A stretch of DNA of 32,598 nucleotides, from contig QKEK01000248.1 in assembly GCA_003251775.1 (NCBI GenBank), positions 1 to 32,598 of the forward strand. Direction: 5' to 3'. Below, piece after piece: positions 14,670-32,597 of the stretch. A program made the translations under genes and the position numbers. Source of the stretch: Clostridia bacterium (GTDB lineage Bacteria > Bacillota > Clostridia > DSM-8532 > SZUA-474). Each line of letters starts with the position of its first letter. Within the stretch, counting starts at the first letter, position 1. A model generated the notes under the pieces. The model did not search any database. It was given only the letters and a program-made list of their open reading frames with translations, and had not been told where the DNA came from.

Positions 14670-15869
14670 TTGGGAAAAGCTCTTATTATTGGTGCTGGTG
14701 GTGTTTCTAATGTAGTAGTACATAAATGCTGTCAGAACCCAGAGGTTTTTGAAGAAATATGTATAGCTAGCAGAACAAAATCTAAATGCGATGCTATGAA
14801 GGAAAAACTAGATGGTGGAAAAACTAAAATACAGACGGCTCAGGTTGATGCAGATAAAACTGAGGAATTAATTACTTTAATTAATCAATTCAAGCCAGAT
14901 ATTGTTATTAATGTGGCATTACCTTATCAGGATTTGACTATTATGGATGCGTGCTTAGCAACAGGTGTGCATTATCTGGATACAGCCAATTACGAACCTC
15001 CAGAGAATCCGAAATTTGAATATAAATGGCAATGGGCATATAAGGAAAAATTCGAGAAGGCTGGTCTTACTGCACTGTTGGGTAGCGGATTTGACCCAGG
15101 TGTAACTGGTGTTTTCACTGCGTATGCCCAAAAGCATTACTTTGATGAAATTCATACAATTGATATTGTTGACGCAAACGCAGGTGACCATGGTTACCCA
15201 TTTGCTACTAATTTTAATCCTGAAATAAACATTCGTGAAATCACAGCCAATGGCAGATACTTTGAAAATGGACAATGGGTTGAGACAAAGCCCTTGGAAT
15301 TTAAAAAAGTGTACGACTTGCCACAGATAGGTCCAAAAAACATTTATCTTCTGTATCATGAAGAATTGGAGTCTTTGGCTGTAAATATTAAGGGTGTTAA
15401 AAAAATTAGATTCTGGATGACCTTTTCTGATAACTATATAAATCACCTAACTGTTCTTCAGAATGTGGGCATGACATCCATTGAGCCTATTAATTTTGAA
15501 GGCAAGGAGATTCAACCACTACAGTTTTTGAAGGCGGTTTTACCAGATCCAGCTTCTTTAGGTCCACGTACAAAGGGTAAAACTAATATTGGCTGTATAA
15601 TACAGGGTACTAAGGATGGTCAGCCTAAAACCTATTATGTTTATAATGTTTGTGTACATGAAGATGCTTATGCCGAGGTAGGCTCACAGGCAATCTCATA
15701 TACAACAGGTGTACCTGCTATGATTGGTGCTAAGCTTATTTTAGAGGGTAAGTGGAGGAAGCCTGGTGTGTTTAATGTAGAGGAATTCGACCCAGATCCA
15801 TTTATGGACGAGCTTAACAAACAGGGCTTGCCATGGCATGAGGACTTTAACCCTACTTTATTGGATTAA
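14670..15869 (+). CDS. Carboxynorspermidine/carboxyspermidine dehydrogenase (saccharopine dehydrogenase family)
   Basis: 399 aa, the family's usual size. It starts with TTG at 14670, supported by GGGAGG 8 nt upstream and by the family N-terminus. ALIIGAGGVSNVVVHKC is the NAD(P)-binding glycine motif at residues 4-20; KPDIVINVALPYQDLTIMDA, HYLDTANYEPPE and GSGFDPGVTGVFTAYAQKH are characteristic of this branch rather than true saccharopine dehydrogenases. The enzyme reductively condenses aspartate beta-semialdehyde with putrescine or 1,3-diaminopropane to form carboxyspermidine or carboxynorspermidine. The next gene is the matching decarboxylase, so together they replace the SAM-dependent SpeD/SpeE route. 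A predicted promoter lies upstream and a 17-bp hairpin separates the two genes. Confidence 0.93.
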   Translation: MGKALIIGAGGVSNVVVHKCCQNPEVFEEICIASRTKSKCDAMKEKLDGGKTKIQTAQVDADKTEELITLINQFKPDIVINVALPYQDLTIMDACLATGVHYLDTANYEPPENPKFEYKWQWAYKEKFEKAGLTALLGSGFDPGVTGVFTAYAQKHYFDEIHTIDIVDANAGDHGYPFATNFNPEINIREITANGRYFENGQWVETKPLEFKKVYDLPQIGPKNIYLLYHEELESLAVNIKGVKKIRFWMTFSDNYINHLTVLQNVGMTSIEPINFEGKEIQPLQFLKAVLPDPASLGPRTKGKTNIGCIIQGTKDGQPKTYYVYNVCVHEDAYAEVGSQAISYTTGVPAMIGAKLILEGKWRKPGVFNVEEFDPDPFMDELNKQGLPWHEDFNPTLLD

Positions 15870-15894
15870 TACTAGGTATCAAAAAAATAGACAC

Positions 15895-15933
15895 AATGTA
15901 TAAATAACCGCGTTAAGCGGTTTTTTATACATT
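15895..15933. terminator. Strong hairpin between the two polyamine genes (terminator or attenuator)
   Basis: AATGTATAAATAACCGC (15895-15911) pairs with GCGGTTTTTTATACATT (15917-15933), 17 bp with one mismatch and a 5-nt loop (GTTAA). The GC-rich top followed by six T residues resembles an intrinsic terminator on the plus strand. It ends 21 nt before the nspC start, so it may lower nspC expression relative to the upstream gene. Confidence 0.75.
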
Positions 15934-15954
15934 TGACATTGGAGGCAAATTACT

Positions 15955-17091
15955 ATGATAAAGGATTTAACAAATGTACAAACACCAGCGTACATTGTAG
16001 ATAAAAGATTATTAAGAAAAAATCTGGAGATACTAAACACCGTTCAGGAAAAAACAGGCTGTAAGATACTATTAGCACTTAAGGGCTTCTCCATGCACGC
16101 CTTATTTCCTATGGTGGGAGAATATCTAGCAGGCATTACCTCCAGTTCCTTGTTTGAGGCAAGACTAGGCTATGAGAAAATGGGTAAAGAGGTACATATC
16201 TATGCACCTGCTTATCAGGAGCAGGAATTTGATGAGCTGTTAAGCTATTGTGACCATATAGTATTTAATTCTGTTCACCAGTATAATAAATATAAGAACA
16301 AGGTTATGGCATATACCTCAAAAAGAGTTGAATGTGGTTTGCGTGTAAATCCAGAGTATTCAGAAATCAAAACACCATTATATGACCCTTGCTATGCCAA
16401 TTCCAGACTAGGTGTTACAGCAAGCAATCTTAACGAAAATGATCTAGAAGGATTAGATGGCATACACTTTCATACCATGTGTGAGCAGAATTCTGATACA
16501 CTTGAAAGAACTATGAAGGTTATAGAAGAAAAATTCGCTAAATATCTATACAAGGTTAAATGGGTAAACTTCGGAGGAGGCCATCATATTACTCGACCAG
16601 ACTATGATATCAATAAATTAATTAATGTTATTAATAGTGTAAAAGAAAAATATAATGTTGAGGTTTATTTAGAGCCAGGTGAGGCTATACCGTTAAATAC
16701 TGGTTTTCTCGTTGCAAGTGTACTTGATATAGTTGATAACGGTATGAACATCGCTATACTTGACACTTCGGCAGCATGCCATATGCCTGACGTAATTGAA
16801 ATGCCCTACCGCCCTGAGATTATAGGTGCTGGTAAGTCTGGTGAATACAAGCATACCTACCGTTTGGGTGGAATGACCTGCCTTGCTGGTGATGTTATAG
16901 GGGACTACTCTTTTATGGAGCCTTTACAGATAGGACAAAAGCTAGTATTCTGCGATATGGCACATTATACAATGGTTAAGAATAATATGTTTAATGGAGT
17001 TAATCTACCATTGATAGCAACTATCGATGATAATGGTATTGAAATAATACGTGAATTTAATTTTGATGATTATAAAAATAGATTGTCCTGA
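15955..17091 (+). CDS. nspC: Carboxynorspermidine/carboxyspermidine decarboxylase
   Basis: 378 aa, ATG with GGAGG 9 nt upstream. A PLP-dependent fold-III (alanine racemase-like) decarboxylase: the PLP lysine is K43 in LLALKGFSMHALFP, GIHFHTMCEQNSDTLE carries the family His-rich loop, WVNFGGGHHITRPDYD is the phosphate-binding glycine loop, EPGEAIPLNTGFL the PLP-ring loop, and CLAGDVIGDYSF (Cys near 309) the active-site cysteine from the partner subunit. It removes the carboxyl group from carboxyspermidine or carboxynorspermidine to give spermidine or norspermidine. It sits 85 nt after the dehydrogenase with a hairpin in the gap and is closed by a convergent hairpin shared with the next gene. 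No putrescine-forming gene is nearby. Confidence 0.95.
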   Translation: MIKDLTNVQTPAYIVDKRLLRKNLEILNTVQEKTGCKILLALKGFSMHALFPMVGEYLAGITSSSLFEARLGYEKMGKEVHIYAPAYQEQEFDELLSYCDHIVFNSVHQYNKYKNKVMAYTSKRVECGLRVNPEYSEIKTPLYDPCYANSRLGVTASNLNENDLEGLDGIHFHTMCEQNSDTLERTMKVIEEKFAKYLYKVKWVNFGGGHHITRPDYDINKLINVINSVKEKYNVEVYLEPGEAIPLNTGFLVASVLDIVDNGMNIAILDTSAACHMPDVIEMPYRPEIIGAGKSGEYKHTYRLGGMTCLAGDVIGDYSFMEPLQIGQKLVFCDMAHYTMVKNNMFNGVNLPLIATIDDNGIEIIREFNFDDYKNRLS

Positions 17092-18658: not shown

Positions 18659-18687
18659 ATTATATATTAAAACCTTAATTATATCAA
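18659..18687 (-). promoter_or_regulatory. Predicted sigma-A promoter of the second chemoreceptor gene
   Basis: On the minus strand TTGATA (18687-18682), a 17-nt spacer and TATAAT (18664-18659) give a near-consensus promoter about 45 nt before the ATG. A vegetative-type rather than a sigma-D flagellar promoter is implied. Confidence 0.7.
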
Positions 18688-19252
18688 TTAGTAACTGTTT
18701 TTTTCACAGATGAAGCATGAACTTTCTTCATCACAGTCTCTCAAGTCAGCCTCTCACACTTTTTACTATACTACAGTAGGCATTGGTATTCCGATAGCTC
18801 CCAGATCAGTTCACTTCTCCAATAAGCACTATGCCTCTAAAAATACTCCGTAGCTACCCGACAAATTCGCCCTCCTGGCTCAGTTGTCGGCAAAAATCAT
18901 CCATGCTTTTTGTACGCTACTCCATATTTTTAGACGCTAAGTGCTTCTAGGTTCGTTCAAATGCTCTGTGCACCATCAGAATACCAATGCCTACTACACA
19001 GAAAACTCATTAAGTTTTTAAAGGTCATTAACAAAATTTCCTGACTATAAAACCTTCAACCTCAATGTATGCTTCTGTTATGCAGTCTTTCGAATACTTA
19101 TCAAATGCCACTTCCAGTTCTTTTTATAAACTGATATAATGATTAGTACCACATCCAAATTTTTAAGTAGATTATATTTATACGAAGAATAAAAAAATCG
19201 GCAAGTTAGTATAATTAATGATATCGCGATTCTGTTTGAAAGGAGATTAATT
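18688..19252. other. Gene-free stretch upstream of the second chemoreceptor, holding a palindromic element
   Basis: No reading frame with an RBS was seen apart from short antisense shadows. It contains a small hairpin at 18709-18732 (GATGAAG with CTTCATC), the 219-bp palindromic element at 18776-18994, and, after it, AT-rich sequence with TATAAT-like motifs near 19134 and 19210 that may serve the small gene at 19253. Confidence 0.6.
18776..18994. mobile_element. 219-bp palindromic MITE-like element with 4-bp target duplication
   Basis: The ends GTAGGCATTGGTATTC (18776-18791) and GAATACCAATGCCTAC (18979-18994) are perfect 16-bp terminal inverted repeats. The halves stay in ungapped register: AAGCACT, TCTAAAAATA and GTAGC begin 48, 60 and 74 nt from the left end, and their reverse complements end at the same distances from the right end. 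A central stem CCGACAA/TTGTCGG (18858-18864, 18884-18890) closes the structure. TACA lies directly outside both ends (18772-18775 and 18995-18998), as expected for a target-site duplication. It encodes no protein, so it would need a transposase in trans. Confidence 0.75.
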
Positions 19253-19462
19253 TTGAAATCTTTAAAGCTTTTATTAATAGGCATTATAATGACAACTATA
19301 ATGATTTTCTATTTATCTTACGTTTTTCAACATCCTGAAATGGGATGTTTTGTAAGTCTAGAATTTACACGTACTCTTTATGCAATTTATTTTATAACAA
19401 TGATATCTATGTATGTTTTATACGTGGTTTTTAAAAAACGAGAATCTAGGAATAAAATTTAA
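19253..19462 (+). CDS. Small two-helix membrane protein of unknown function
   Basis: 69 aa from a TTG start supported by a very good ribosome binding site (AAAGGAG, 7 nt upstream). Two membrane helices (LLLIGIIMTTIMIFYLSYVF and LYAIYFITMISMYVLYVVF) are joined by a short loop with HPEMGCFVSLEFTRT, and the protein ends in a basic tail (KKRESRNKI). No similarity recognised. It stands alone downstream of the palindromic element. The RBS and the hydrophobic pattern argue that it is real, but its role (small regulator, holin-like or toxin-like protein) cannot be told. Confidence 0.6.
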   Translation: MKSLKLLLIGIIMTTIMIFYLSYVFQHPEMGCFVSLEFTRTLYAIYFITMISMYVLYVVFKKRESRNKI

Positions 19463-19677
19463 TAAGTCATATTTTAAGCTTTAGATTAAACGAAACCCTA
19501 AAACACTCATCTAAAGAAATCGTTAAATAATAAATAAGCAAAATCAATGCATAAATTTTTACAAAGACAAGTATATATATATTAGAAATGATTTTAACAG
19601 TATTTCCATTATTTAATTGAACATGCATATTGTAATTTAGATAATTAAAAACTAATAGATCCTTCTTAAGTATACAA

Positions 19678-19712
19678 AAGAGTATAATAATACTATTTAA
19701 AATTATACTCTT
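19678..19712 (+). promoter_or_regulatory. 11-bp inverted repeat directly before the RBS of the next small gene
   Basis: AAGAGTATAAT (19678-19688) and ATTATACTCTT (19702-19712) are perfect inverted repeats with a 13-nt loop, ending 7 nt before AAAGGAGG. It could be an operator over a -10 element (the arm contains TATAAT) or a leader hairpin. Confidence 0.45.
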
Positions 19713-19734
19713 AATAATAAAGGAGGTCGTTATA

Positions 19735-20040
19735 ATGGAAGCTATCAGTGTATTTCTAAAAATTATCTGCTGTGTATTACAAATCATTACCTTCTTTAGA
19801 GAGAATCAAGACGACATTAAAAGAGCAATCAATAAAATTAAGCATCCAAAGCTGTCAATTCTACCAAGCAACGTTATCAGAATTAAAGCCTTGTTTATAC
19901 ACAATAAGAACCTTGCCTTATTAAAGCTATCAAATCTAGCAGACAAAGTAATAGCCTCATTTTATTTGCAAAAAATGGTTCTAGAGAAGAAGCTCAGAAC
20001 CATCTACACAAAAATCTGCATAAAAATATTACATCATTAA
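19735..20040 (+). CDS. Small basic protein with hydrophobic N-terminus, unknown function
   Basis: 101 aa, ATG with AAAGGAGG about 8 nt upstream, among the strongest RBSs in the window. Residues 3-20 (AISVFLKIICCVLQIITFF) are hydrophobic with a Cys pair and could be a membrane-insertion or amphipathic segment; the rest is Lys-rich (DDIKRAINKIKHPK, QKMVLEKKLRTIYTKICIKI). No domain recognised. An 11-bp inverted repeat precedes the RBS and a textbook terminator follows the stop by 17 nt, so this is a complete single-gene unit. Possible membrane-active peptide or regulator, but there is no direct evidence. Confidence 0.65.
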   Translation: MEAISVFLKIICCVLQIITFFRENQDDIKRAINKIKHPKLSILPSNVIRIKALFIHNKNLALLKLSNLADKVIASFYLQKMVLEKKLRTIYTKICIKILHH

Positions 20041-20056
20041 ATCTCACCACAATATT

Positions 20057-20095
20057 AAGGAGCTTATATATCGCCTATATATAGGCTCCTTTTTT
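20057..20095 (+). terminator. Strong intrinsic terminator of the small basic protein gene
   Basis: AAGGAGCTTATATAT (20057-20071) pairs with ATATATAGGCTCCTT (20077-20091), 15 bp with one G-U and a 5-nt loop, followed by T residues to 20095. Confidence 0.9.
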
Positions 20096-20163
20096 CTATA
20101 TTATTATATTATTTATGATACAAATATATTACTTAAAATTTATTGTCTTTAATAGTATTTTTA

Positions 20164-20268
20164 GTACCAAGTATCAAGTACCAAGTATCAAGTATCAAGT
20201 ATCAAGTACTAAATATCAAGTATCAAGTACAAAGTATTAAATATAAAGTATTAAGTATCAAGTATTAA
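20164..20268. repeat. Heptanucleotide tandem array, 15 units of GTATCAA
   Basis: Fifteen head-to-tail 7-bp units; six are exactly GTATCAA and the others differ by one to three changes (GTACCAA, GTATTAA, ATATAAA and so on). Degeneracy rises toward the right. It lies in the convergent gap between the small gene's terminator and the export adaptor's stop codon, and does not code for protein. Confidence 0.95.
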
Positions 20269-20288
20269 TCATAAAGAATATAAATCTC

Positions 20289-21410
20289 TTATACCCCGAT
20301 TTCAACATCAACATTAAAGCCTGGTATCAAAAAGCCATCATTGTCCTTTATACTTATCTTTACATAAACATTAGTCTCTCCATTAGATGTAACGGCACGT
20401 TTTTGAATTACCTCTACCTCTCCTGTATAGCTTTTGGTTTTATCTGCTAAGGGAATTATCTTAACCCTTGCACCCTCCTTAACATCCACAATAAACTCTT
20501 CGGCTACCTCTGCCTCTACGTATAGCTCAGACACATTTATAAGGCTTATGCAACGGGTATTCTCAAGTAAAATATCACCCTCGCTACAAAGTATATCAGT
20601 AATTATTGATACCTCAGTGTCGCACAATACTACATTATCATTAATATCTGCCCTATTCTTTTTACTTAATAAGTCCTCCAGTATCACCTTGAGTATTTCT
20701 ATTTCCTTTTGTTTTAATTCATAAGCTGAAGCGTATTGTCTTATCTGAGTATCTATCCCTGCAATCTCTGATTCAAAGGCTAGCTCCAGCTCTTTAAGCT
20801 CATTTCGTTTTTGAATAACCCTTTCCTCAAAGGTATCAAATTCTGATTTTGTTATTGTGCCTGATTTCATCATTTCACTTTTTTGGACTAGTTCCTTCTC
20901 TAATTTATCTAAAGCTGTCTTTGTAGTCTCACTATTAAACACAAGTCTCTTTAGATTTGGGTTGTTTTCCTTATTTTTTTGCAGTCTTTGATGGGACAGC
21001 TCTTTTTCAAGCTTATTTAGCTCAAGTATAGCCTTATCTGTATTCATTTCTGCATTTCTTATAAGCTTCTCTTGCTGTGTCAGACTTATCTCCATTAGTG
21101 GTGTTCCCTTCGTTACTGTATCCCCTTCGTTTACCAAAACCTTAAGCACCTCGGCAGAGAATGGCAGGCTGATATTTTTACTACTTCCTGATTTGATAAC
21201 ACCGTACGCATTTACTCCACCAGCATCCTTATTGCTATCATTATTTACTTCACTAGCACCCTTGTCTCCCTCATTATTTACTTCAATACTAGCTTCATCC
21301 TTTGCGGTATCTACCTCAGATTTTGAATTACACCCTGTAAAGGCAATTGCCATTATTGCTACTGATAAGGCTAGATACAAGCCTTTTCTTAAAAAACTAC
21401 TTATACTCAT
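20289..21410 (-). CDS. Lipoprotein membrane-fusion (HlyD/MacA-type) adaptor of an ABC exporter
   Basis: 373 aa from the ATG at 21410, which has GGAGG 10 nt upstream; an ATG at 21428 adds six residues but has no RBS. The N-terminus is a lipoprotein signal (LALSVAIMAIAFTGC, Cys at 27), followed by an acidic, Asn/Ser-rich linker. Then comes a lipoyl-like half (LPFSAEVLKVLVNEGDTVTK), a long coiled coil (about residues 105-235), the second lipoyl half (ILCSEGDILLENTRCISLIN) and a beta-barrel domain (ELYVEAEVAEEFIVDVKEGA). In Gram-positives such adaptors cooperate with MacB-like ABC transporters to export peptides or other amphiphiles. It overlaps the upstream ATPase gene by 14 nt, so the two are translationally coupled; it is the last gene of the operon. 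Confidence 0.9.
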   Translation of the reverse strand: MSISSFLRKGLYLALSVAIMAIAFTGCNSKSEVDTAKDEASIEVNNEGDKGASEVNNDSNKDAGGVNAYGVIKSGSSKNISLPFSAEVLKVLVNEGDTVTKGTPLMEISLTQQEKLIRNAEMNTDKAILELNKLEKELSHQRLQKNKENNPNLKRLVFNSETTKTALDKLEKELVQKSEMMKSGTITKSEFDTFEERVIQKRNELKELELAFESEIAGIDTQIRQYASAYELKQKEIEILKVILEDLLSKKNRADINDNVVLCDTEVSIITDILCSEGDILLENTRCISLINVSELYVEAEVAEEFIVDVKEGARVKIIPLADKTKSYTGEVEVIQKRAVTSNGETNVYVKISIKDNDGFLIPGFNVDVEIGV

Positions 21411-22083
21411 CTGTTTCAATCCTCCCATCTCTTACGTGTATGACCCTATTACCATAATCCGCCGACTCACTTGAGTGGGTAACCTGTACAATAGTAGTCC
21501 CTTCAGATTTATTTATCCTTTTTAGTAGCTGCATAATTTCACAGCCAGTTTTAGAATCAAGATTACCTATAGGTTCGTCTGCCAGAATTATTTCTGGATT
21601 ATTAATTAGTCCTCTAGCTATAGCTACACGCTGCTGTTGACCACCTGATAATTCCCTTGGAGTATGATGACGTCGGTCTTCCAAGCCTACTATGTTAAGA
21701 ATTTCATCAAGTCTGGCTCTGTACTTTTTTATTTTTCCTCCATCTAATAATACTGGCATAAGGATGTTTTCTTCAACATTTAGATTTGGTATCAGGTTAT
21801 AGAATTGGAAGACAAAGCCTATATCCCTTCTTCTCATTATGCTCTCATCCTTATCCTTAAGCTTTGCCACATTTTTGCCATTAACCTTTACATTTCCGCT
21901 TGTAGGTTTATCAAGCCCCCCAATTAAATACAGTAAAGTGCTTTTCCCAGAGCCAGAGGGACCCATTATGGAAACAAATTCTCCTTTGTTAATAGCTATA
22001 TTAACATCCTTTAAAACCTCTACATCTACAGAACCGAGCTTATAGGTTTTATTCAGCTGCTCAGTCTCTATGACAACACTCAT
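21397..22083 (-). CDS. ABC transporter ATP-binding subunit, MacB/LolD type
   Basis: 228 aa, the usual length. ATG at 22083 with AAAGGAG 7 nt upstream; a longer frame to 22161 would run into an intergenic repeat. All ATPase motifs are present: Walker A GPSGSGKST, Q-loop in FVFQFYNLIPNLNVEENIL, signature LSGGQQQRVAIARGL, Walker B with the catalytic Glu in IILADEPIGNLDS, and the H-loop TIVQVTHSSE. The TYKLGSVDVEVLKDVN start is typical of the MacB/LolD/FtsE class that powers FtsX-like permeases. It is the middle gene of the operon, after the permease (139-nt gap) and overlapping the adaptor. Confidence 0.95.
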   Translation of the reverse strand: MSVVIETEQLNKTYKLGSVDVEVLKDVNIAINKGEFVSIMGPSGSGKSTLLYLIGGLDKPTSGNVKVNGKNVAKLKDKDESIMRRRDIGFVFQFYNLIPNLNVEENILMPVLLDGGKIKKYRARLDEILNIVGLEDRRHHTPRELSGGQQQRVAIARGLINNPEIILADEPIGNLDSKTGCEIMQLLKRINKSEGTTIVQVTHSSESADYGNRVIHVRDGRIETDEYK

Positions 22084-22110
22084 TTTAACACTCCTTTCAT
22101 TATGACAATC

Positions 22111-22170
22111 ATTAACTACCCCATGCCTACGGCACAAATAACGCCTGTAAGCGATTTTCAAGACATTTTA
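22111..22170 (+). repeat. 60-bp intergenic repeat, second type, copy 2
   Basis: Ungapped match, about 82%, to the reverse complement of 8084-8141. It fills much of the 139-nt gap between the permease and ATPase genes, in antisense orientation to the operon. TGTAAGCGATTTTC looks a little like a catabolite-response site but deviates at conserved positions. Confidence 0.6.
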
Positions 22171-25193: not shown

Positions 25194-28100
25194 TTAGTTA
25201 CTTACAGGCACAATAAGCTTTTGTCCGACAAATATTAAATCTGGATTTTTGATATTATTTACTCTTTGAAGTTCCTGCCAAGTAGTCTTGAATTTAAGAG
25301 CAATCTTACTCAAGCAATCCCCTTTATTAACAACGTACTCTGATGCCAGCTTGTCTGTTACAGTAACTCTTCCCTCAACCTTAGGAGCAATAGCTTTTTC
25401 TGTCTGAATATACTTGATTAAGGCTTCATCCAATGCACTATACTCATTTATAAGTACGCTGTCCTTAAGCATGGTATAATTGTCTCCTCCAGCCGCCATA
25501 AAATCATTAGTTGCAAGGATATATTCCTTATTTAAGTCAACTGGTGCTCCTGCAATAATCAGATTTTGTATACGCTTTCCTGCATCTTTACCTGTGTTAA
25601 TAGTAAAGCTCATACCTGCTACATGAGGGAAGGAGCCTGCCTGATTTGGATATACTGATGTTCCATGCTCTAAGGCTGCTAGTATGTCCGAGCCTTTAAC
25701 CTTCTTAGTTACAATATAGTTTCCAAAGGGAAGTACTGTAATTACCTGCCCTTTAGATATATTTCCAGCTTCAATAGAAGCACGAATACCACCACCGTTA
25801 GTTAGTGCACAATCTGCATTTGATTCCTTCAACATAGCGTCAGCTATTAGATTACCCAAATTGGTTTCCCCAGCACGTACATTAGCTCTTTCACCCTCTA
25901 GCGTTACAGAGGTTGTTCCTACCACCTCTGAGAGTATCTCATCCTGCTGTGCTTTTATTTCATTAATAGCTACCGTTATTTTTTCATTCTGTGAGATATT
26001 CGTAGCATCTGTCTTAGTAAACAAATGTGCCTGCTTTGAGCTTACAGCTCCTTTTGACACATAAATATCTACGAAGCCTAAATTCTTGCTGTACTCACCT
26101 GCACTCGCAATTAAGGTATCACCCTCAAGGTATCCGTTTGTAAGGGTTGTATGACTATGTCCATCAATTATAACATCAATTCCATTAACTGTCTTTGCAA
26201 GACCTGTGCTTGTATATTCGCTTGATGCGTCCATTCCAAGATGGCACAACGCAATAATAACATCTGCCTTAGCTGACAACAACTTAACCATATTTTTTGC
26301 TTCATCATATGGACTTTTGAAGGTTAGTCCAGCAACGTTATCAGGATGTGTTTTATAAGTGGTTTCAGGTGTTGCAAGACCAAATACAGCTATTTTCACC
26401 CCACCCCTCTCAATTATTGTATAGGGTGTGATAAAATCAGAGGCGTCTGAGTTTTTAATGTTTGCAGCTAGAATAGGAAAGCTTGTCTTTGCATCTAATA
26501 ATTTTAGCTGCTCCTTACCATAGTTGAAGTCGTGATTACCTGGCGTCATAGCATTATAACCGATTCCATTCATGAGAGTAGCTATACTTAGACCTTTTTC
26601 AAGTGTTGCAAAGGTTTGCCCATGGAAGGTGTCTCCTGCATCTAATAAAATGGTATTAGGATTTTTAGTCTTTTCTTGTTCTACAAGTGTTGAAATTTTG
26701 GCTAATCCCATGCCATCATAACTACCCTCAATTACTCGGGCATGTATGTCATTAGTATGCAATATTGATATATGGACTGTATCAGATGGCTCAGCCTGAA
26801 TAACAGCAAGTGTTCCAGATACTTCGTGAGCTACCAGTAGCAACGCCTTACCTGTAGGACTTTTAGCCGCATCGACAAAGCACATTCCCTCTGGTGCAAG
26901 GTCTCCTGCTGGAGCCTCCTTACCAAATTCTCGGCTAGTAAAATAAGTAACAAAAACAGGGCTTTGTGGATTGGTAACATTATATACTGCTACCCCACCC
27001 ATTCTTTCCATTCCAATAAAGGCGTAGGTATTATTTCCTATTACACCTGTTTCTATATCCTCTGGCTCAATACCCTTGTCATCACTACGATTGTCAAACG
27101 CATCCTCATCATTAGTGGTATTAAAATACTCAGGCAAGGCATAAGCAGATAGCCTTTCAAGCTCTGAACCACTATCATAAACCTGCTCCATAGTCTTTGT
27201 ATCATATATGGAAAATGAGCGAGCACCATAGGTATATAATGCCTCATATTTACCTTCTGAATTTTTACCTAATTCAGTGGTTATCTTTAATCTTCCTAGC
27301 TTAGTTTTATCAAAAAGACCCTCTTCTACCAGCTTATCTAGCTCTGTTTGAGTAAAGCCCTTATAGTTTTCCGCATTCAGAGAAATTTCATCCTTAACTT
27401 CCCCAACACGTGCCTCCTCTGAAAAGCCGTCATAATCTCTGGAATCTCCTTCATTTGGAGTAATCAGGTAGTCCTTGCCGTCGATAGTTAAGATATCTAT
27501 TCCATCTGGCTGGTACATACCAAGCACTGGATATTTAGCGAAATTAATAGCTTCATCCTTATCAGATGCGTCCATCTCTTGTAATGACCAGTCCTTCAAG
27601 CCAAGGCTTTTAACGTTTAAAAATTTCCCGGTCAATATATCAAGGACAGCGATAGCGTTATGCTCTTGCAATGCTACATAAGCCGTTGTGCCATCTGATG
27701 AAAGGGTTATGTATTCAGGCTCAAAATCCTGTGCCTTTGTAGCACCTGATTTTATACCACGCACCTTGCTATCAACTATTACTGAATCGTCAAATATTGC
27801 AGTACTTACGGTAGCATTCTCAGCACCTGCTGAAATATCTATAATAGAAACACTGCCCTCTGGGTCAATGGAGTAATCATCGCTAGGCTCACCCTCATTG
27901 GCAACCAATATCTTGTTTCCATCAGGGGTAAAAGCTAGCATATCGGGCAACGCACCAACCTGAACCGTTTTTATTACTGTCCCTTCCAAATTGACAAGGG
28001 CAACTATACCATTTTCAGTTTTTGGCTCTGACGGAATAGCTACAGCTACTATGCTTTCGTCAGGGCTAACTGCAACGCTGGTAATGTCACTCACCCCTGT

Positions 28101-28406
28101 TGCAAGGCTATCTAAAGCTAATCTTTTTTCATAAGACAGCTTTGTAAAGCTCTGAGATAAGCCTCCTAAATTAACTATATCTAATGAACGCTCACTACCG
28201 TTTACAATAAATGCTTTTTGAGAATTGGGTGCATACGCAACTATTTCAGCACCCCCAGCACCACTACCGCTGTCATAGTGTGCGATTAGCTTCATACTGA
28301 GCTCACCAGTACCATTCCAGCCTGCTGTCCCAGCATTAGCCTGAATAATCATGGTACAGAGCAGTGCCATGCACATAAGAATTGCAAACAACCTTTTTCT
28401 TTTCAT
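25194..28406 (-). CDS. Secreted choice-of-anchor-I / 5'-nucleotidase fusion with C-terminal LysM
   Basis: 1070 aa. ATG at 28406 has GGGGAGG 8 nt upstream; an in-frame ATG at 28517 lies before a repeat and lacks an RBS. The signal peptide ([20 protein letters not shown], cleaved near QANA) is followed by a beta-propeller-like choice-of-anchor-I region (about 45-530; [31 protein letters not shown]). A metallophosphatase/5'-nucleotidase follows (about 545-1010): [28 protein letters not shown] and IDGHSHTTL supply the dinuclear metal ligands, and [20 protein letters not shown] starts the substrate domain. A LysM (about 1022-1069; [20 protein letters not shown]) would bind peptidoglycan. It probably hydrolyses extracellular nucleotides or UDP-sugars at the wall. 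Repeat copy F lies in its leader. Confidence 0.93.
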
Positions 28407-28440
28407 AAAATTAACCTCCCCTAACCCATAATTTAGTATT

Positions 28441-28471
28441 AAGCCTTTTGCGTTGCTACATATTTGAACGC
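28441..28471 (-). repeat. Dispersed intergenic repeat, copy F, in the nucleotidase leader
   Basis: On the minus strand GCGTTCAAATATGTAGCAAC then GCAAAAGGCTT. GCGTT and AACGC are inverted arms. A TATAAT lies at 28488-28483, so an RNA started there would carry this repeat at its 5' end; the -35 is poor, so this start is tentative. Confidence 0.65.
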
Positions 28472-28625
28472 AATTCACTCGTATTATATGTGAAGTTATC
28501 ATTTTGCTATTAATCACATATTAATTATGTGTTAAATGAGTGTTATTTATTTTATCATATGATTTTATATGGCTTTATTGAGTATTAGATTCTTAATACA
28601 TAATATTTTAGAAATTATATGAGCT

Positions 28626-29387
28626 TTAATAATTCAGTTTAACATAATCAATCCATTCTTTATAAATTTCTTGTTCAGATTTTGAGAAGATTTTATTATA
28701 TGTTTCTTTCCCTGTAATCAAGTCCAAAACCTTGTCCCAGCCATACTGTTTATTCAAAAATTCAATATAAGTATAAGAATATTGATAACCACCTATATTC
28801 CCAAAATATACTTCATTTTCACTTTTCATATCATCTATAGTAGGGATAGAATTATACTTTGTAAACCCTTTATTAGGAGACTGTTTTGCTAGAAATGTCG
28901 CTACTCCGTTATCATTCCAATATGATAATTTAGGATTAATTTGGTAATTAATTGTATGCACAAGTTCGTGGGTAGCAACTCTCAAAATACTATCATTATC
29001 ATATCCTGATACTTTTGCATATGGTGAAATCATAATAACCTTGTCTTTTTTATTATCCCCAACAAACCAATTTGGTGCACCTAGAATTGTAATGAATCCA
29101 TATTTTCTTATCCATAAAGATTTTTGATTAGCATATATATAAATATTAGTTGGTTTTGAACTGTTAAACTTAAGTTTTTTTCTTATCTCTTCTGCAGAAT
29201 TTTCTAAATTGTCGTAAACTTGTCTCGCTCCTCTTTCGTCACCATTTTGGTAGTAAACAACGATATTTTTCCCTTTTATTTGCTTAGCAACCATTGGCTT
29301 TAATATAAACACAGGTAATGTCTGTAAAACAGCTGGAATTAAAACACAAAATATAGATACATATAGAATTTTAAGCTTTTTATTCAT
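28626..29387 (-). CDS. Membrane-anchored zinc metallopeptidase (peptidase MA-like)
   Basis: 253 aa, ATG with GAGGT about 6 nt upstream. One N-terminal membrane helix (LYVSIFCVLIPAVLQTLPVF) followed by an extracellular domain. The zinc-binding HELVH is at residues 140-144 in RVATHELVHTINYQ, followed by the NDNGVATFLA segment where the third ligand (normally Glu) of gluzincin-type peptidases is expected; here the usual Glu is not obvious, so activity is uncertain. The C-terminal part (YSYTYIEFLNKQYGWDKVLDLITG) matches the helical end of the peptidase-MA family. Function likely cleavage of surface or wall proteins. A predicted promoter and repeat copy G lie upstream; the nucleotidase gene follows on the same strand after 219 nt. 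Confidence 0.8.
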   Translation of the reverse strand: MNKKLKILYVSIFCVLIPAVLQTLPVFILKPMVAKQIKGKNIVVYYQNGDERGARQVYDNLENSAEEIRKKLKFNSSKPTNIYIYANQKSLWIRKYGFITILGAPNWFVGDNKKDKVIMISPYAKVSGYDNDSILRVATHELVHTINYQINPKLSYWNDNGVATFLAKQSPNKGFTKYNSIPTIDDMKSENEVYFGNIGGYQYSYTYIEFLNKQYGWDKVLDLITGKETYNKIFSKSEQEIYKEWIDYVKLNY

Positions 29388-29562: not shown

Positions 29563-29874
29563 TTAGGGTTTTAATTTTCTCTTTTTAAGTTTATCATATA
29601 TCAATATAGATACATATAGAAATAAACTAAAAAGAGTCATTATAACCTGTAAACCAAAGAACATTGATGCATCATTAACAAAATAGAGTCTTATTCTTTC
29701 CCTAATTGGTTCAGAAGGAAAATATGACGCTATAGACTTCCATATTATATAAAAATTTATTAATAAAATACTAAGTGGTGAAAGAAATAAGTATTTTTTT
29801 TTATATTTATATAATATGCTTGTAGTTACCAATGGAATGCCCACAATTATTGAAACTATAATCATAATAGCCAT
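29563..29874 (-). CDS. Small membrane protein, paralogue of the one at 31865-32188 (RLYFxNDASM motif)
   Basis: 103 aa from the ATG at 29874 (GGGAG about 12 nt upstream); GTG 29883 and TTG 29886 are less likely because the RBS would be too close. Three hydrophobic stretches: AIMIIVSIIVGIPLVTTSIL, FLSPLSILLINFYIIW and FFGLQVIMTLFSLFLYVSIL, with a loop SYFPSEPIRERIRLYFVNDA and a basic end (KLKKRKLKP). The loop matches that of the second protein (YSPNEVFKEQCRLYFHNDAS), in the same place between helices, so they are paralogues. No family recognised. It follows a gene scrap (29880-30011) whose stop overlaps this start region, so it may once have been the second gene of a pair. Confidence 0.65.
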   Translation of the reverse strand: MAIMIIVSIIVGIPLVTTSILYKYKKKYLFLSPLSILLINFYIIWKSIASYFPSEPIRERIRLYFVNDASMFFGLQVIMTLFSLFLYVSILIYDKLKKRKLKP

Positions 29875-29879
29875 TATAC

Positions 29880-30011
29880 TCACCAACTCCCTAGTTCTCC
29901 AACCTCAACATGGTCATTATATTTTGAATCTGCGTTGATGCTACCAATAATTAAAAAGCGATATACTTTTCTCCATGGCTTGTTTGCAGTTATGTTTGAT
30001 ATTATAACTAT
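29880..30011 (-). pseudogene. Possible C-terminal remnant of an unknown gene
   Basis: Open minus-strand frame of 43 codons without a good start, ending at TGA 29880-29882. It contains KPWRKVYRFLIIGSINADSK and YNDHVEVGELGSW, which read like real protein. The family is not recognised. It ends at the start of the small membrane gene. Confidence 0.3.
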
Positions 30012-30025
30012 TTATATATTGGATT

Positions 30026-30501
30026 TCAAGCATTATTTTCCACATTAATTTCAACTTGCAAAGGGTAACCATAATCAAGTTTGTTCCCTAGTTCAGTTCC
30101 AATTTCTCTTATAAAAGCTCCTGCTTTAAAGAGTTTTTTCCAAATATCATCATATTCAGCTCCAGCATATAAAGATATAAATTTAGTATATAAGTCTGTA
30201 TCCACCAAAGCTCGTTACATACTTTATTCCATTCACTTTCAGTAGGTTTCTTTACAAAATATATACTATCATTGGGTTCAGGTAACCTATCAGTTATATT
30301 ATCTTTATTAAGCAATGTTTTACTGAGTGAGTCCTCTTTTATTGCCGATTTACCCTTTTTTTACATCATTAAAGCGAAGGTCTATTCTTACACCATCTTT
30401 AAATTGCATTAGAAATATATATGAGCTATCATCAAAATCATTTTGTTGTCATTATTTGCAAACTCAATAATTTGTTTTAGTACTTGTTCTTCGGTTCTCA
30501 A
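30026..30501 (-). pseudogene. Broken ANT(6)-type aminoglycoside 6-adenylyltransferase (AadE-like)
   Basis: Pieces of the family occur in order on the minus strand but in different frames: LRTEEQVLKQIIEFAN (from 30501, N-terminus), SYIFLMQFKDGVRIDLRF, then SAIKEDSLSKTLLNKDN with LPEPNDSIYFVKKPTES and NELWWIQTYI, and finally YDDIWKKLFKAGAFIREIG with NKLDYGYP. Frame changes occur near a run of seven A residues (about 30360) and elsewhere. The whole is about 476 nt against roughly 860-900 nt for an intact gene, so large internal parts are lost, including the nucleotidyltransferase GSR motif. It cannot make an active enzyme. It is a relic of an acquired or ancestral resistance-type gene. Confidence 0.85.
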
Positions 30502-30557
30502 AACAACATCATATCCTAGCTCAATTTAAAATTGTAAATTGCATTACATTCAAGATA

Positions 30558-30689
30558 CTATTTTGAATAGTTTTGAAGCAGTTCCATTGCATCTACTGCT
30601 CTATCAAACTCTCCAACAGAGGTTTCAATCTCTGCCCATTCTTTTTCATCACCAGATAACTGGATTAATTTCTGTATGGCAACATTGGA
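30558..30689 (-). pseudogene. Short gene remnant after the methyltransferase, family unknown
   Basis: A 43-codon minus-strand frame bounded upstream by TAA and ending TAG at 30558-30560 encodes VAIQKLIQLSGDEKEWAEIE then TSVGEFDRAVDAMELLQNYS. It has no start codon and reads like the helical C-terminal end of a lost protein. Confidence 0.4.
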
Positions 30690-30692
30690 TTA

Positions 30693-31481
30693 TCATTTTT
30701 GAGCAAGCAATATGTAATATAATGGATAGTCTTTGTTATCATACGCATTTGTCATTCCCACATCATAATTATATTCATCCAGTTTTTTTATTGCCATTCC
30801 AGCAATAATTACCGAATTAACAATATCAGATAAAGTATGTGAAAAACTTATAAATGTTTTTGACTCATACTGTAGCGTCATATAACCCATACCACTGTTT
30901 TCAATCCAAGGTTCTTTTCTATAATATGAATATGTTATTTTGTTTAAATTTTCCCCATCAAAACCATCTTCATGCGGTAGCGGGAGCATATTCATGAAGG
31001 GATGAAAGTCGTTAATTAGCATTAGTCCATTTGACTTCAAGCATTTTGATACTTTTTCAAACAATAAACTTAAATCTTTAAACCAAGTAATAGCCCCAAT
31101 TGTAAAGAAAATAAAGTCAAACTTGTTATAATAGTTTTCATCAATATCAATAATGTTAGTTGCTACAAAATCACAGTTAGATATATTTGCTTTTCTTGCA
31201 GTCTCCTTTGCTTGCTCAATAATATTTTCAGCGATATCAAAACCAACTCCACAGCTTGGATTTAACTGCATCATGGACAATAATTCGCGACCATTGTTGC
31301 AACAGAACTGAGCAATTGTTTTTCCCTTTAAGTCAATCTTTTCAATTTCACTAACAACATCAGCATTAAAAAAGGGAAGTTTCTCATTCATTAGGGTTTT
31401 ATAGTTATCATCTCCCCAGCTAGGTCGTCTGTTTTCAAACGCTTCTTCCCATGCTGCCTTATTATTATTTATATAGTCCAC
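30693..31481 (-). CDS. Class I SAM-dependent methyltransferase
   Basis: 262 aa from a GTG at 31481, chosen because GGAGG lies 7 nt upstream; a longer frame to 31538 has no RBS. The Rossmann methyltransferase fold is shown by motif I KTIAQFCCNNGRELLSMMQL, the acidic strand-2 end CGVGFDIAENIIEQAKETA, CDFVATNIIDID, the motif IV region FDFIFFTIGAITWFKDL and LKSNGLMLINDFHPF. The family includes small-molecule and tRNA or antibiotic methylases; the substrate cannot be told. It is flanked by gene scraps on both sides, so it appears to be a surviving accessory gene in an eroded region. Confidence 0.85.
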   Translation of the reverse strand: MDYINNNKAAWEEAFENRRPSWGDDNYKTLMNEKLPFFNADVVSEIEKIDLKGKTIAQFCCNNGRELLSMMQLNPSCGVGFDIAENIIEQAKETARKANISNCDFVATNIIDIDENYYNKFDFIFFTIGAITWFKDLSLLFEKVSKCLKSNGLMLINDFHPFMNMLPLPHEDGFDGENLNKITYSYYRKEPWIENSGMGYMTLQYESKTFISFSHTLSDIVNSVIIAGMAIKKLDEYNYDVGMTNAYDNKDYPLYYILLAQK

Positions 31482-31601
31482 TTCTATTCCTCCATTCAAA
31501 TCTTTATAGAATACTATGAAGTCTATCTTTTTTATCAATTAATTTAATTAATCTAATATGGTTTAACAATATTTTACTATAATTAGCCACAAAGTTAATA
31601 A

Positions 31602-31730
31602 AAACTTATAGAACTCGCCATTATAAGGATTGATAGCATAGACAGCTTAAAAGAACTTCAGGACTTTGACATTGAGGGCAAAACAGCCTTTAAGGCATTT
31701 GAAAATAATCATTTTTATAGGCTTCATTAA
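31602..31730 (+). pseudogene. Possible plus-strand C-terminal gene remnant
   Basis: A 43-codon frame preceded by TAA and ended by TAA (31728-31730) reads IDSIDSLKELQDFDIEGKTA then FKAFENNHFYRLH. The composition is protein-like, but there is no start codon or RBS and no family is recognised. Confidence 0.35.
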
Positions 31731-31800
31731 TACTCTCATGGCTCTACGCCAAAACAGATTAGTATAATAATTATATACCAAACGCGTTCGAGTAGAGAGG

Positions 31801-31839
31801 AATAATTAAGAGAGTTTTTGTCTCTCCTAAATAATTATT
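31801..31839 (-). terminator. Nested hairpin after the second small membrane gene
   Basis: AATAATTA/TAATTATT encloses GAGAG/CTCTC (31810-31814, 31822-31826). It lies 26 nt past the stop at 31865 on the minus strand. There is no T-run after it, so terminator function is uncertain. Confidence 0.35.
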
Positions 31840-31864
31840 ATTTACACTATAATATATATTCTTA

Positions 31865-32188
31865 TTATCTTTGTGCATATATTTTTTTTATGAATTTTAT
31901 TACTATTTCTAATACAATACTTAATATAGGTAAAATAGTTCCTATTATTATTCCAGGTGCAATTATAAAATAAAAATACATTGAAGCATCATTGTGAAAG
32001 TAAAGTCGGCATTGTTCTTTAAACACTTCATTTGGGCTATAAGAATTTATTTGTGTATATAATACTAATAACCATAAAAAAGAATTTGAAAAAGCTACAA
32101 TTCGTTTAATCTTATTATATTTGAGTTTATAAAAGAAATATAATAAGACTAAAGCTAAAAAAATTAGAATAATATAAGTATTAATCAT
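31865..32188 (-). CDS. Small membrane protein with RLYFxNDASM motif, paralogue of 29563-29874
   Basis: 107 aa, ATG at 32188 with AAAGGA 6 nt upstream. Helices at YIILIFLALVLLYFFY, IVAFSNSFLWLLVLYTQI and FYFIIAPGIIIGTILPILSI, with the loop NSYSPNEVFKEQCRLYFHND and a basic C-terminus. Same size, helix layout and loop motif as the protein at 29563-29874, although the helices have diverged. It follows directly (TAA then ATG in the same frame) a decayed reading frame at 32189-32394. Function unknown; immunity or small accessory membrane roles are possible but unproven. Confidence 0.7.
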   Translation of the reverse strand: MINTYIILIFLALVLLYFFYKLKYNKIKRIVAFSNSFLWLLVLYTQINSYSPNEVFKEQCRLYFHNDASMYFYFIIAPGIIIGTILPILSIVLEIVIKFIKKIYAQR

Positions 32189-32394
32189 TTATTTTCCTTT
32201 CTTTTTATTGTTAACCCATTCATTTGACCAGATTATAATAATCACACCTAAATTACCGCTAAAATTGACTGCTATCCTTACACTTCTCCAACTTATTTTA
32301 TTTCAAGTATTTTTTACCATGGTATCTATGCCGTTATTTGTCTTATTTTTTCCTGTAGGAGCATTAGTAATGGTTAGAAGTATATGTTAAGTTT
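32189..32394 (-). pseudogene. Possible decayed reading frame directly upstream of the second small membrane gene
   Basis: The minus-strand frame reads ILLTITNAPTGKNKTNNGID then TMVKNT, a TGA stop (32303-32305), and continues in the same frame with NKISWRSVRIAVNFSGNLGV, IIIIWSNEWVNNKKKGK, ending TAA immediately before the next ATG. No start codon with RBS. It may be a gene interrupted by one nonsense change or chance coding. Confidence 0.25.
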
Positions 32395-32510: not shown

Positions 32511-32597
32511 TGGTGCCGAAGGCCGGACTCGAACCGGCACGGTATCGCTACCACTGGATTTTGAGTCCAGCGCGTCTGCCAATTTCACCACTTCGGC
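32511..32597 (-). tRNA. tRNA-Leu (anticodon CAA)
   Basis: 87 nt including an encoded CCA. The acceptor stem GCCGAAG pairs with CTTCGGC, the anticodon arm is CTGGA-CTCAAAA-TCCAG with anticodon CAA, there is a long variable arm typical of class II tRNAs, and the T arm contains GGTTCGAGTCC. It reads UUG leucine codons. It is followed directly by a terminator and so is the last or only gene of its transcript within the window. Confidence 0.97.

Follow-up and report, generated by a model that had tools for sequence, protein, structure and literature searches.

The window analysed here (the whole stretch of 32,598 nucleotides of a Clostridia bacterium contig, QKEK01000248.1) carries near its end two small open reading frames, the predicted products of which share a short polar motif between hydrophobic segments. 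The sequence-only reading of this DNA considered them paralogs belonging to no known family and proposed that they were once partners of genes now lost. The locus thus raises the question of whether the two frames represent a genuine protein family, and whether its members are tied to a neighbouring gene.

Two small membrane proteins and their setting

The relevant features of the window are as follows:
29563-29874, minus strand: P0001, the first of the two small three-helix membrane proteins (103 aa; residues 62-71 form the motif RLYFVNDASM)
29883-30011, minus strand: 43-codon open frame that stops 5 nt short of the P0001 start
30026-30525, minus strand: decayed aminoglycoside 6-adenylyltransferase-like gene, recognized from PF04439 pieces
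30693-31538, minus strand: open frame of a class I SAM-dependent methyltransferase (Methyltransf_31, E 8.9e-15), between P0001 and P0002
31865-32188, minus strand: P0002, the second of these proteins (107 aa; residues 61-70 form the motif RLYFHNDASM)
32192-32302, minus strand: open frame of 37 codons, the stop of which abuts the P0002 start
32511-32597, minus strand: tRNA-Leu (caa), lying 322 bases upstream of P0002 where the contig ends

Translation confirmed that both small frames, as originally delimited, begin with ATG and contain no internal stops. They are poor in G+C (GC 0.237 and GC3 0.183 for P0001; GC 0.204 and GC3 0.12 for P0002). By eye, AAAGGA can be read a short way 5' of the P0002 start, while AGGGAG and GGTGAG stand 5' of the P0001 start.

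The suggested homology of the two proteins through their shared loop was borne out. BLASTP aligned them with an E value of 1e-10 (16 of 31 residues identical, confined to residues 43-73 of P0001), and their Smith-Waterman score was 100, a value that neither 1000 plain nor 1000 hydropathy-preserving shuffles attained (maxima 79 and 75, respectively). The motif itself is shared, although its formula required correction to [FS]P[SN]E...E..RLYF.NDASM[FY]F: the first S occurs only in P0002, and the glutamates are separated by three residues, not four. Similarly, the three hydrophobic segments ascribed to both proteins were found in P0001 by hydropathy, whereas the middle segment of P0002 falls below a simple hydropathy cut-off; a structural model of P0002, of low confidence, predicts three long helices.

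Between 28.5 kb and the vicinity of the tRNA-Leu gene the G+C content drops to 0.25-0.32, as compared with 0.38-0.43 over the preceding 2.5 kb. Within this stretch, PF04439 pieces were identified at 30353-30448, 30112-30360 and 30029-30214 (profile positions 82-108, 111-167 and 218-273), and a further piece (30412-30525), with no Pfam match, was assigned to the same adenylyltransferase relic by position only. The relic ends approximately 150 nt upstream of P0001, and no second copy of it was found in the same genome. The description of the region between the two genes as decayed is therefore correct for the broken pieces at about 30026-30448, but not for positions 30693-31538, which hold the open methyltransferase frame. 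Each of the two genes had also been thought to follow a broken frame. Two open frames, one of 43 codons and one of 37, do end at or near the two ATGs, but they had no match in Pfam, in plasmids or in the other family loci, and no lost gene is evident there; the 37-codon frame may be due to chance.

The G+C content and position of the stretch suggest an accessory island beside a tRNA gene. No 13-base repeat of the tRNA-Leu was found elsewhere in the window, and no integrase was recognized; the contig ends at the tRNA gene.

Several other features of the window are worth recording. Beside P0001, and within the stretch of low G+C, the frame at 28626-29387 (minus strand) encodes a protein that begins with a hydrophobic segment, carries HExxH (HELVH, read by eye) and matched Peptidase_MA_2 weakly (E 0.0069, below the cut-off). 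The frame at 25194-28517 (minus strand) specifies a protein of 1107 aa in which choice-of-anchor I, calcineurin-like phosphoesterase, 5'-nucleotidase C-terminal and LysM domains are fused. Between MCP-type and HlyD-type genes lies a segment of about 1.6 kb (18660-20288) with no listed frame of more than 106 codons; it contains a small hydrophobic frame (19253-19462, plus strand). At 14670-17091 (plus strand) a saccharopine dehydrogenase-like gene is followed by a gene for an Orn/DAP/Arg decarboxylase C-domain, an arrangement like that of the carboxyspermidine route to polyamines.

Members and distribution of the family

Searches detected motif-bearing homologs in six genomes besides that of the window, all belonging to its class (G026, G163, G185, G792, G803 and G813). 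The G185 member lies in record JAAYPO010000136.1, a Clostridiaceae MAG, from which it follows that the class of these genomes is probably Clostridia. The family comprises eight core proteins in seven genomes, plus two distant proteins (referred to as G803b and G804); the core protein of G803 is referred to as G803a. At the level of sequence, it proved to be real, small, rare and undescribed.

In the larger genome samples scoring was limited to the 11-12 top candidates of each genome, and the member counts from these samples are lower bounds. Single-sequence searches of 61 genomes (the window's own and 60 relatives) gave matches in four, of which those of G056 and G052 were set aside, leaving G026 as the sole other accepted member; a search of 11 genomes matched two, G163 and G056. 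A three-sequence profile matched 17 of 391 genomes of a class sample at E ≤ 0.01. Three were kept, i.e. the window's own genome, G163 (E 7.5e-24) and G185 (E 1.4e-16), and 14 were set aside, 12 of them with partial matches at E of 0.001 or worse and the other two being G056 and G089. A five-sequence profile added G813, G792 and G803 within the order of G163, which brought the family to 5 of the 58 genomes there; in the window's own order it was present in 2 of 33. In a phylum sample of 398, the window's own genome alone matched at E ≤ 0.001. Finally, an eight-sequence profile matched 5 of the 391 genomes of the class sample, with G163 and G185 accepted, and 9 of the 58 genomes of the order of G163 (E ≤ 0.01), namely the five, three chance matches and G804. 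Two further weak places were noted in the window's own genome (E 0.19 and 0.20). A pattern search of genome_contigs matched 12 stretches, of which at least one is a member, since one was confirmed against P0001 and the other 11 may include true distant members.

The following candidates were rejected: the G089 protein (a GAF/HD protein by Pfam), the G056 protein (for its likeness to the former), the G186 protein (a BPD_transp_1 permease) and the G797 protein (a DUF2752 protein). The matches of G056, G089 and G797 to the eight-sequence profile were treated as due to chance.

The core members, as used, are 102-109 aa long and 15-51% identical to one another. All eight carry the core motif [YF][FL]xND.[SI]M at the start of helix 3 and, within a length of about 100 residues, end in a basic C-tail with 2-6 K/R; only the N, the D and the final M are invariant in the eight-row alignment. 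When [YF][FL].ND.[SI]M was sought in six-frame translations of the window and of the family loci then collected, it occurred in the eight members only. In shuffle tests (1000 of each kind) the score was unreached in 10 of 12 pairs, including all nine core pairs tested.

The two window proteins are, by sequence comparison, no closer to each other than either is to a protein of another genome: the G185 protein scored 132 with P0001 and 113 with P0002, as against 100 for the window pair, and the tree did not join P0001 and P0002 together. The two copies would then go back to a duplication long ago, or to two independent arrivals, and not to a recent tandem duplication.

The distant proteins (L058:1459-1830 in G803 and L057:1459-1827 in G804) are 72% identical. 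They retain the three-helix outline, with YINE or YIYE replacing the motif, and are linked to the core by profile E values of 8.1e-4 and 0.0044. The score of G803b with G813 was reached by none of 1000 shuffles and that with G163 by 0 and 3 of 1000, so that the latter is nearly above the shuffles; its score with P0001 was reached by 111 and 129 of 1000, i.e. it is not above them.

At a G+C content of 20-24% frames can stay open by chance, and one could regard P0001 and P0002 as spurious or dying frames preserved by base composition. This is extremely improbable, given that eight homologs of similar length share the motif, and that identity at codon positions 1, 2 and 3 was 0.66, 0.74 and 0.48 for G026 and G163, and 0.76, 0.91 and 0.47 for G803b and G804. 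The sequence-only reading had described the helices outside the motif as free-running; in the distant pair, the latter values indicate that the whole protein is under coding constraint.

The claim that the proteins fall into no known family also held, as all ten were below every Pfam and NCBIfam cut-off. Two weak similarities were recorded. The G185 member matched the lmo0954 family of membrane proteins (NF052277) over residues 31-99 (E 0.0023; 18.5 bits against a cut-off of 40), whereas the other nine proteins did not. P0002 and the G026 protein matched DUF4131 (PF13567) with E values of 0.012 and 0.0073 (15.7 and 16.5 bits against 31.6); this match spans helices 1-2 and ends before the motif, and the other eight proteins lack it. 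Since none of the ten reached the curated cut-offs, membership in either family was rejected. Five family proteins had no match in PADLOC, and the same number gave a best E of 0.062 against PHROGs; a PDB sequence search with a five-row profile yielded a best E of 0.15. Fold searches, one for each low-confidence model, returned nothing under E 3, as expected from models of such confidence. No match was obtained in plasmid or phage searches (two members, one per search), and of six pattern matches in viral contigs none was confirmed. A literature survey conducted by topic rather than by motif (small membrane proteins, holins, lineage-specific families, orphan immunity, adenylyltransferase) disclosed no mention of the family in titles and abstract openings.

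Neighbouring genes and the question of a partner

The genes adjacent to the family members in the other genomes are:
G185: upstream, a YjbR gene (at 30 bp); downstream, a HAD hydrolase
G163: upstream, a GNAT acetyltransferase (at about 165 bp); downstream, a protein weakly like methylguanine methyltransferase
G792: upstream, a YgjP-like metallopeptidase (at 35 bp) that follows a type I restriction gene; downstream, a dockerin protein (at 70 bp)
G803a: dockerin proteins on either side
G803b and G804: flanked by a metallophosphoesterase (named by Pfam in G803b, with 78% identity to its G804 counterpart) and by a dockerin protein
G813: upstream, a zinc-dependent phospholipase C
G026: 620-aa protein and FMN oxidoreductase, both some hundred bases off

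A BLASTP comparison of the 359 frames of at least 60 codons at the nine loci (flanks of 1.5 to about 8 kb, some ending at contig ends; the window from 20 kb on) revealed no neighbour that all the loci share. The links that did appear were (i) a pair of ABC ATPases (window 21400-22167 and G813, 31%), (ii) dockerin-bearing and related proteins among G803a, G803b and G804, and (iii) the single conserved neighbour of G803b and G804 (78%). No shared partner emerged when six short pieces of the window, the methyltransferase and the peptidase-like protein were compared with the other family loci by tblastn, and the methyltransferase had no match there. The kinds of adjacent genes named by Pfam differ between loci, with the partial exception of the dockerin-bearing ones. 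The proposal that P0001 and P0002 are partners of lost genes is thus not supported, and a recurrent gene directly upstream, the expected sign of such a partnership, was not found among the frames of at least 60 codons at the nine loci.

Dockerin type I domains above the Pfam cut-off adjoin four of the nine loci, in three genomes (G792, G803a on both sides, and the pair G803b and G804; L038:3966-6755, L039:2439-3737 and 5034-6569, L058:2191-3303, L057:2004-3296), which may reflect a loose association. Such neighbours would fit a protein accessory to surface or cellulosome-type enzymes, acting for instance in their export or anchoring. However, G803 and G804 represent one genus and G803b and G804 look orthologous, which reduces the independent dockerin loci to three. 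Moreover, no adjacent dockerin gene was recognized at G163, G185, G813, G026 or the window pair. We consider a role of this kind very unlikely.

Bacteriocin immunity membrane proteins are, as a general class, small, polytopic and accessory, and the present proteins resemble them in all three respects. The family might, on this analogy, consist of orphan immunity proteins shielding the cell from the bacteriocins or antimicrobial peptides of its neighbours, the toxin gene being missing. The sporadic spread, the divergent copies, the AT-rich setting next to the relic of a resistance gene and the predicted exposure of the loop (see below) are all consistent with such a function. On the other hand, the family differs from that class in having no family match and no toxin gene in view: no common gene for a toxin or peptide was seen among frames of at least 60 codons at the nine loci (a scope that reaches shorter peptide frames only for the six window pieces), although an orphan would in any case lack such a gene, and the five proteins compared with PADLOC matched no defence system there. 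Furthermore, the loop is the most conserved part of the family, yet variation would be expected in the regions that give immunity proteins their specificity. We judge this prediction unlikely.

Predicted topology and possible role of the conserved loop

Three separate hydrophobic cores were resolved by the simple cut-off in seven of the eight core members, P0002 being the exception. In the six core members in which the cut-off separates the loop between helices 1 and 2 (not P0002 or G163), this loop has 2-4 K/R and lacks acidic residues. The motif loop, in the seven core members that could be split, has 3-4 acidic residues and 1-4 basic ones. By net charge, the predicted inside is the more positive in all seven. 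Hydropathy and charge indicate that the proteins are likely oriented with the N-terminus out, the C-terminus in and the motif loop on the outer face. We regard this topology as likely rather than sure because the K/R count alone favours the inside in only five of the seven, with a tie in G163 (3 and 3) and the reverse in G026 (6 and 7).

Class I holins of the lambda S105 type are about 100 residues long and have a basic tail. Three helices in an N-out, C-in arrangement are described for class I holins (PMC9636201). The size, the basic tail and the predicted topology of the family resemble these features, which would be compatible with a holin-like or prophage protein forming lethal membrane holes. 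The family differs, however, in its conserved loop motif and in showing no sequence match and no recognized phage or lysis gene nearby: no lysin or phage gene was recognized by eye among the frames listed around the loci, Pfam named none among the adjacent genes scanned, and the PHROG, phage and viral-contig searches described above yielded no convincing match. A holin-like identity is accordingly highly improbable.

The models of P0002 and P0001 were built from three-row alignments (mean pLDDT 67.4 and 70.0; pTM 0.36 and 0.41, respectively). They place helices at residues 2-21, 27-50, 56-66 and 68-106 of P0002, and at 2-24, 26-51, 57-67 and 69-101 of P0001. In both, a short helix (56-66 or 57-67) is predicted, with a break at the D of the ND pair, which tentatively suggests a hairpin at this pair in the loop. 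The E..R.YF part of the motif would lie in the short helix, and the ND pair would end that helix and start helix 3, so as to give a fixed hairpin.

Because conservation centres on the loop, including the place where it joins helix 3, and the nine loci showed no common neighbour, we tentatively favour the reading that the family is a stand-alone small membrane protein with the outer-face hairpin as its working part, although the dockerin genes beside some loci and the K/R distribution in G163 and G026 lower our confidence to somewhat short of even. Such a protein would act alone or on something encoded elsewhere. Its helices would serve mainly as an anchor and the outer hairpin as the binding part, the target being possibly a protein of the envelope, a peptide outside the cell or a precursor of the cell wall; the gene would behave as a dispensable accessory. 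A more specific version, in which the hairpin senses or blocks an extracellular peptide or cell-wall precursor and the gene is a single-gene protection module passed among fibre-degrading and related Clostridia, is decidedly doubtful, more so than the immunity function considered above.

A purely structural role of the motif accounts for its conservation equally well. The ND pair would then merely cap helix 3, and the protein would be a small subunit, or an assembly factor, of a larger membrane complex encoded elsewhere, in keeping with the helix break predicted at this pair in both models and with the retention of the outline by G803b and G804 despite the altered motif site. Nevertheless, the sporadic presence of the family in the two orders is unlike that of a subunit of a widely kept complex, and this alternative as a whole seems to us about as unlikely as orphan immunity.

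Whatever the role of the hairpin, a motif first spotted by eye now defines a searchable family of eight core and two distant proteins, and the notion of a lost partner loses support. If the hairpin does not bind anything, the family is one among many uncharacterised families of small membrane proteins; if it does, these proteins would represent a recognition module of a single gene and only 100 residues.
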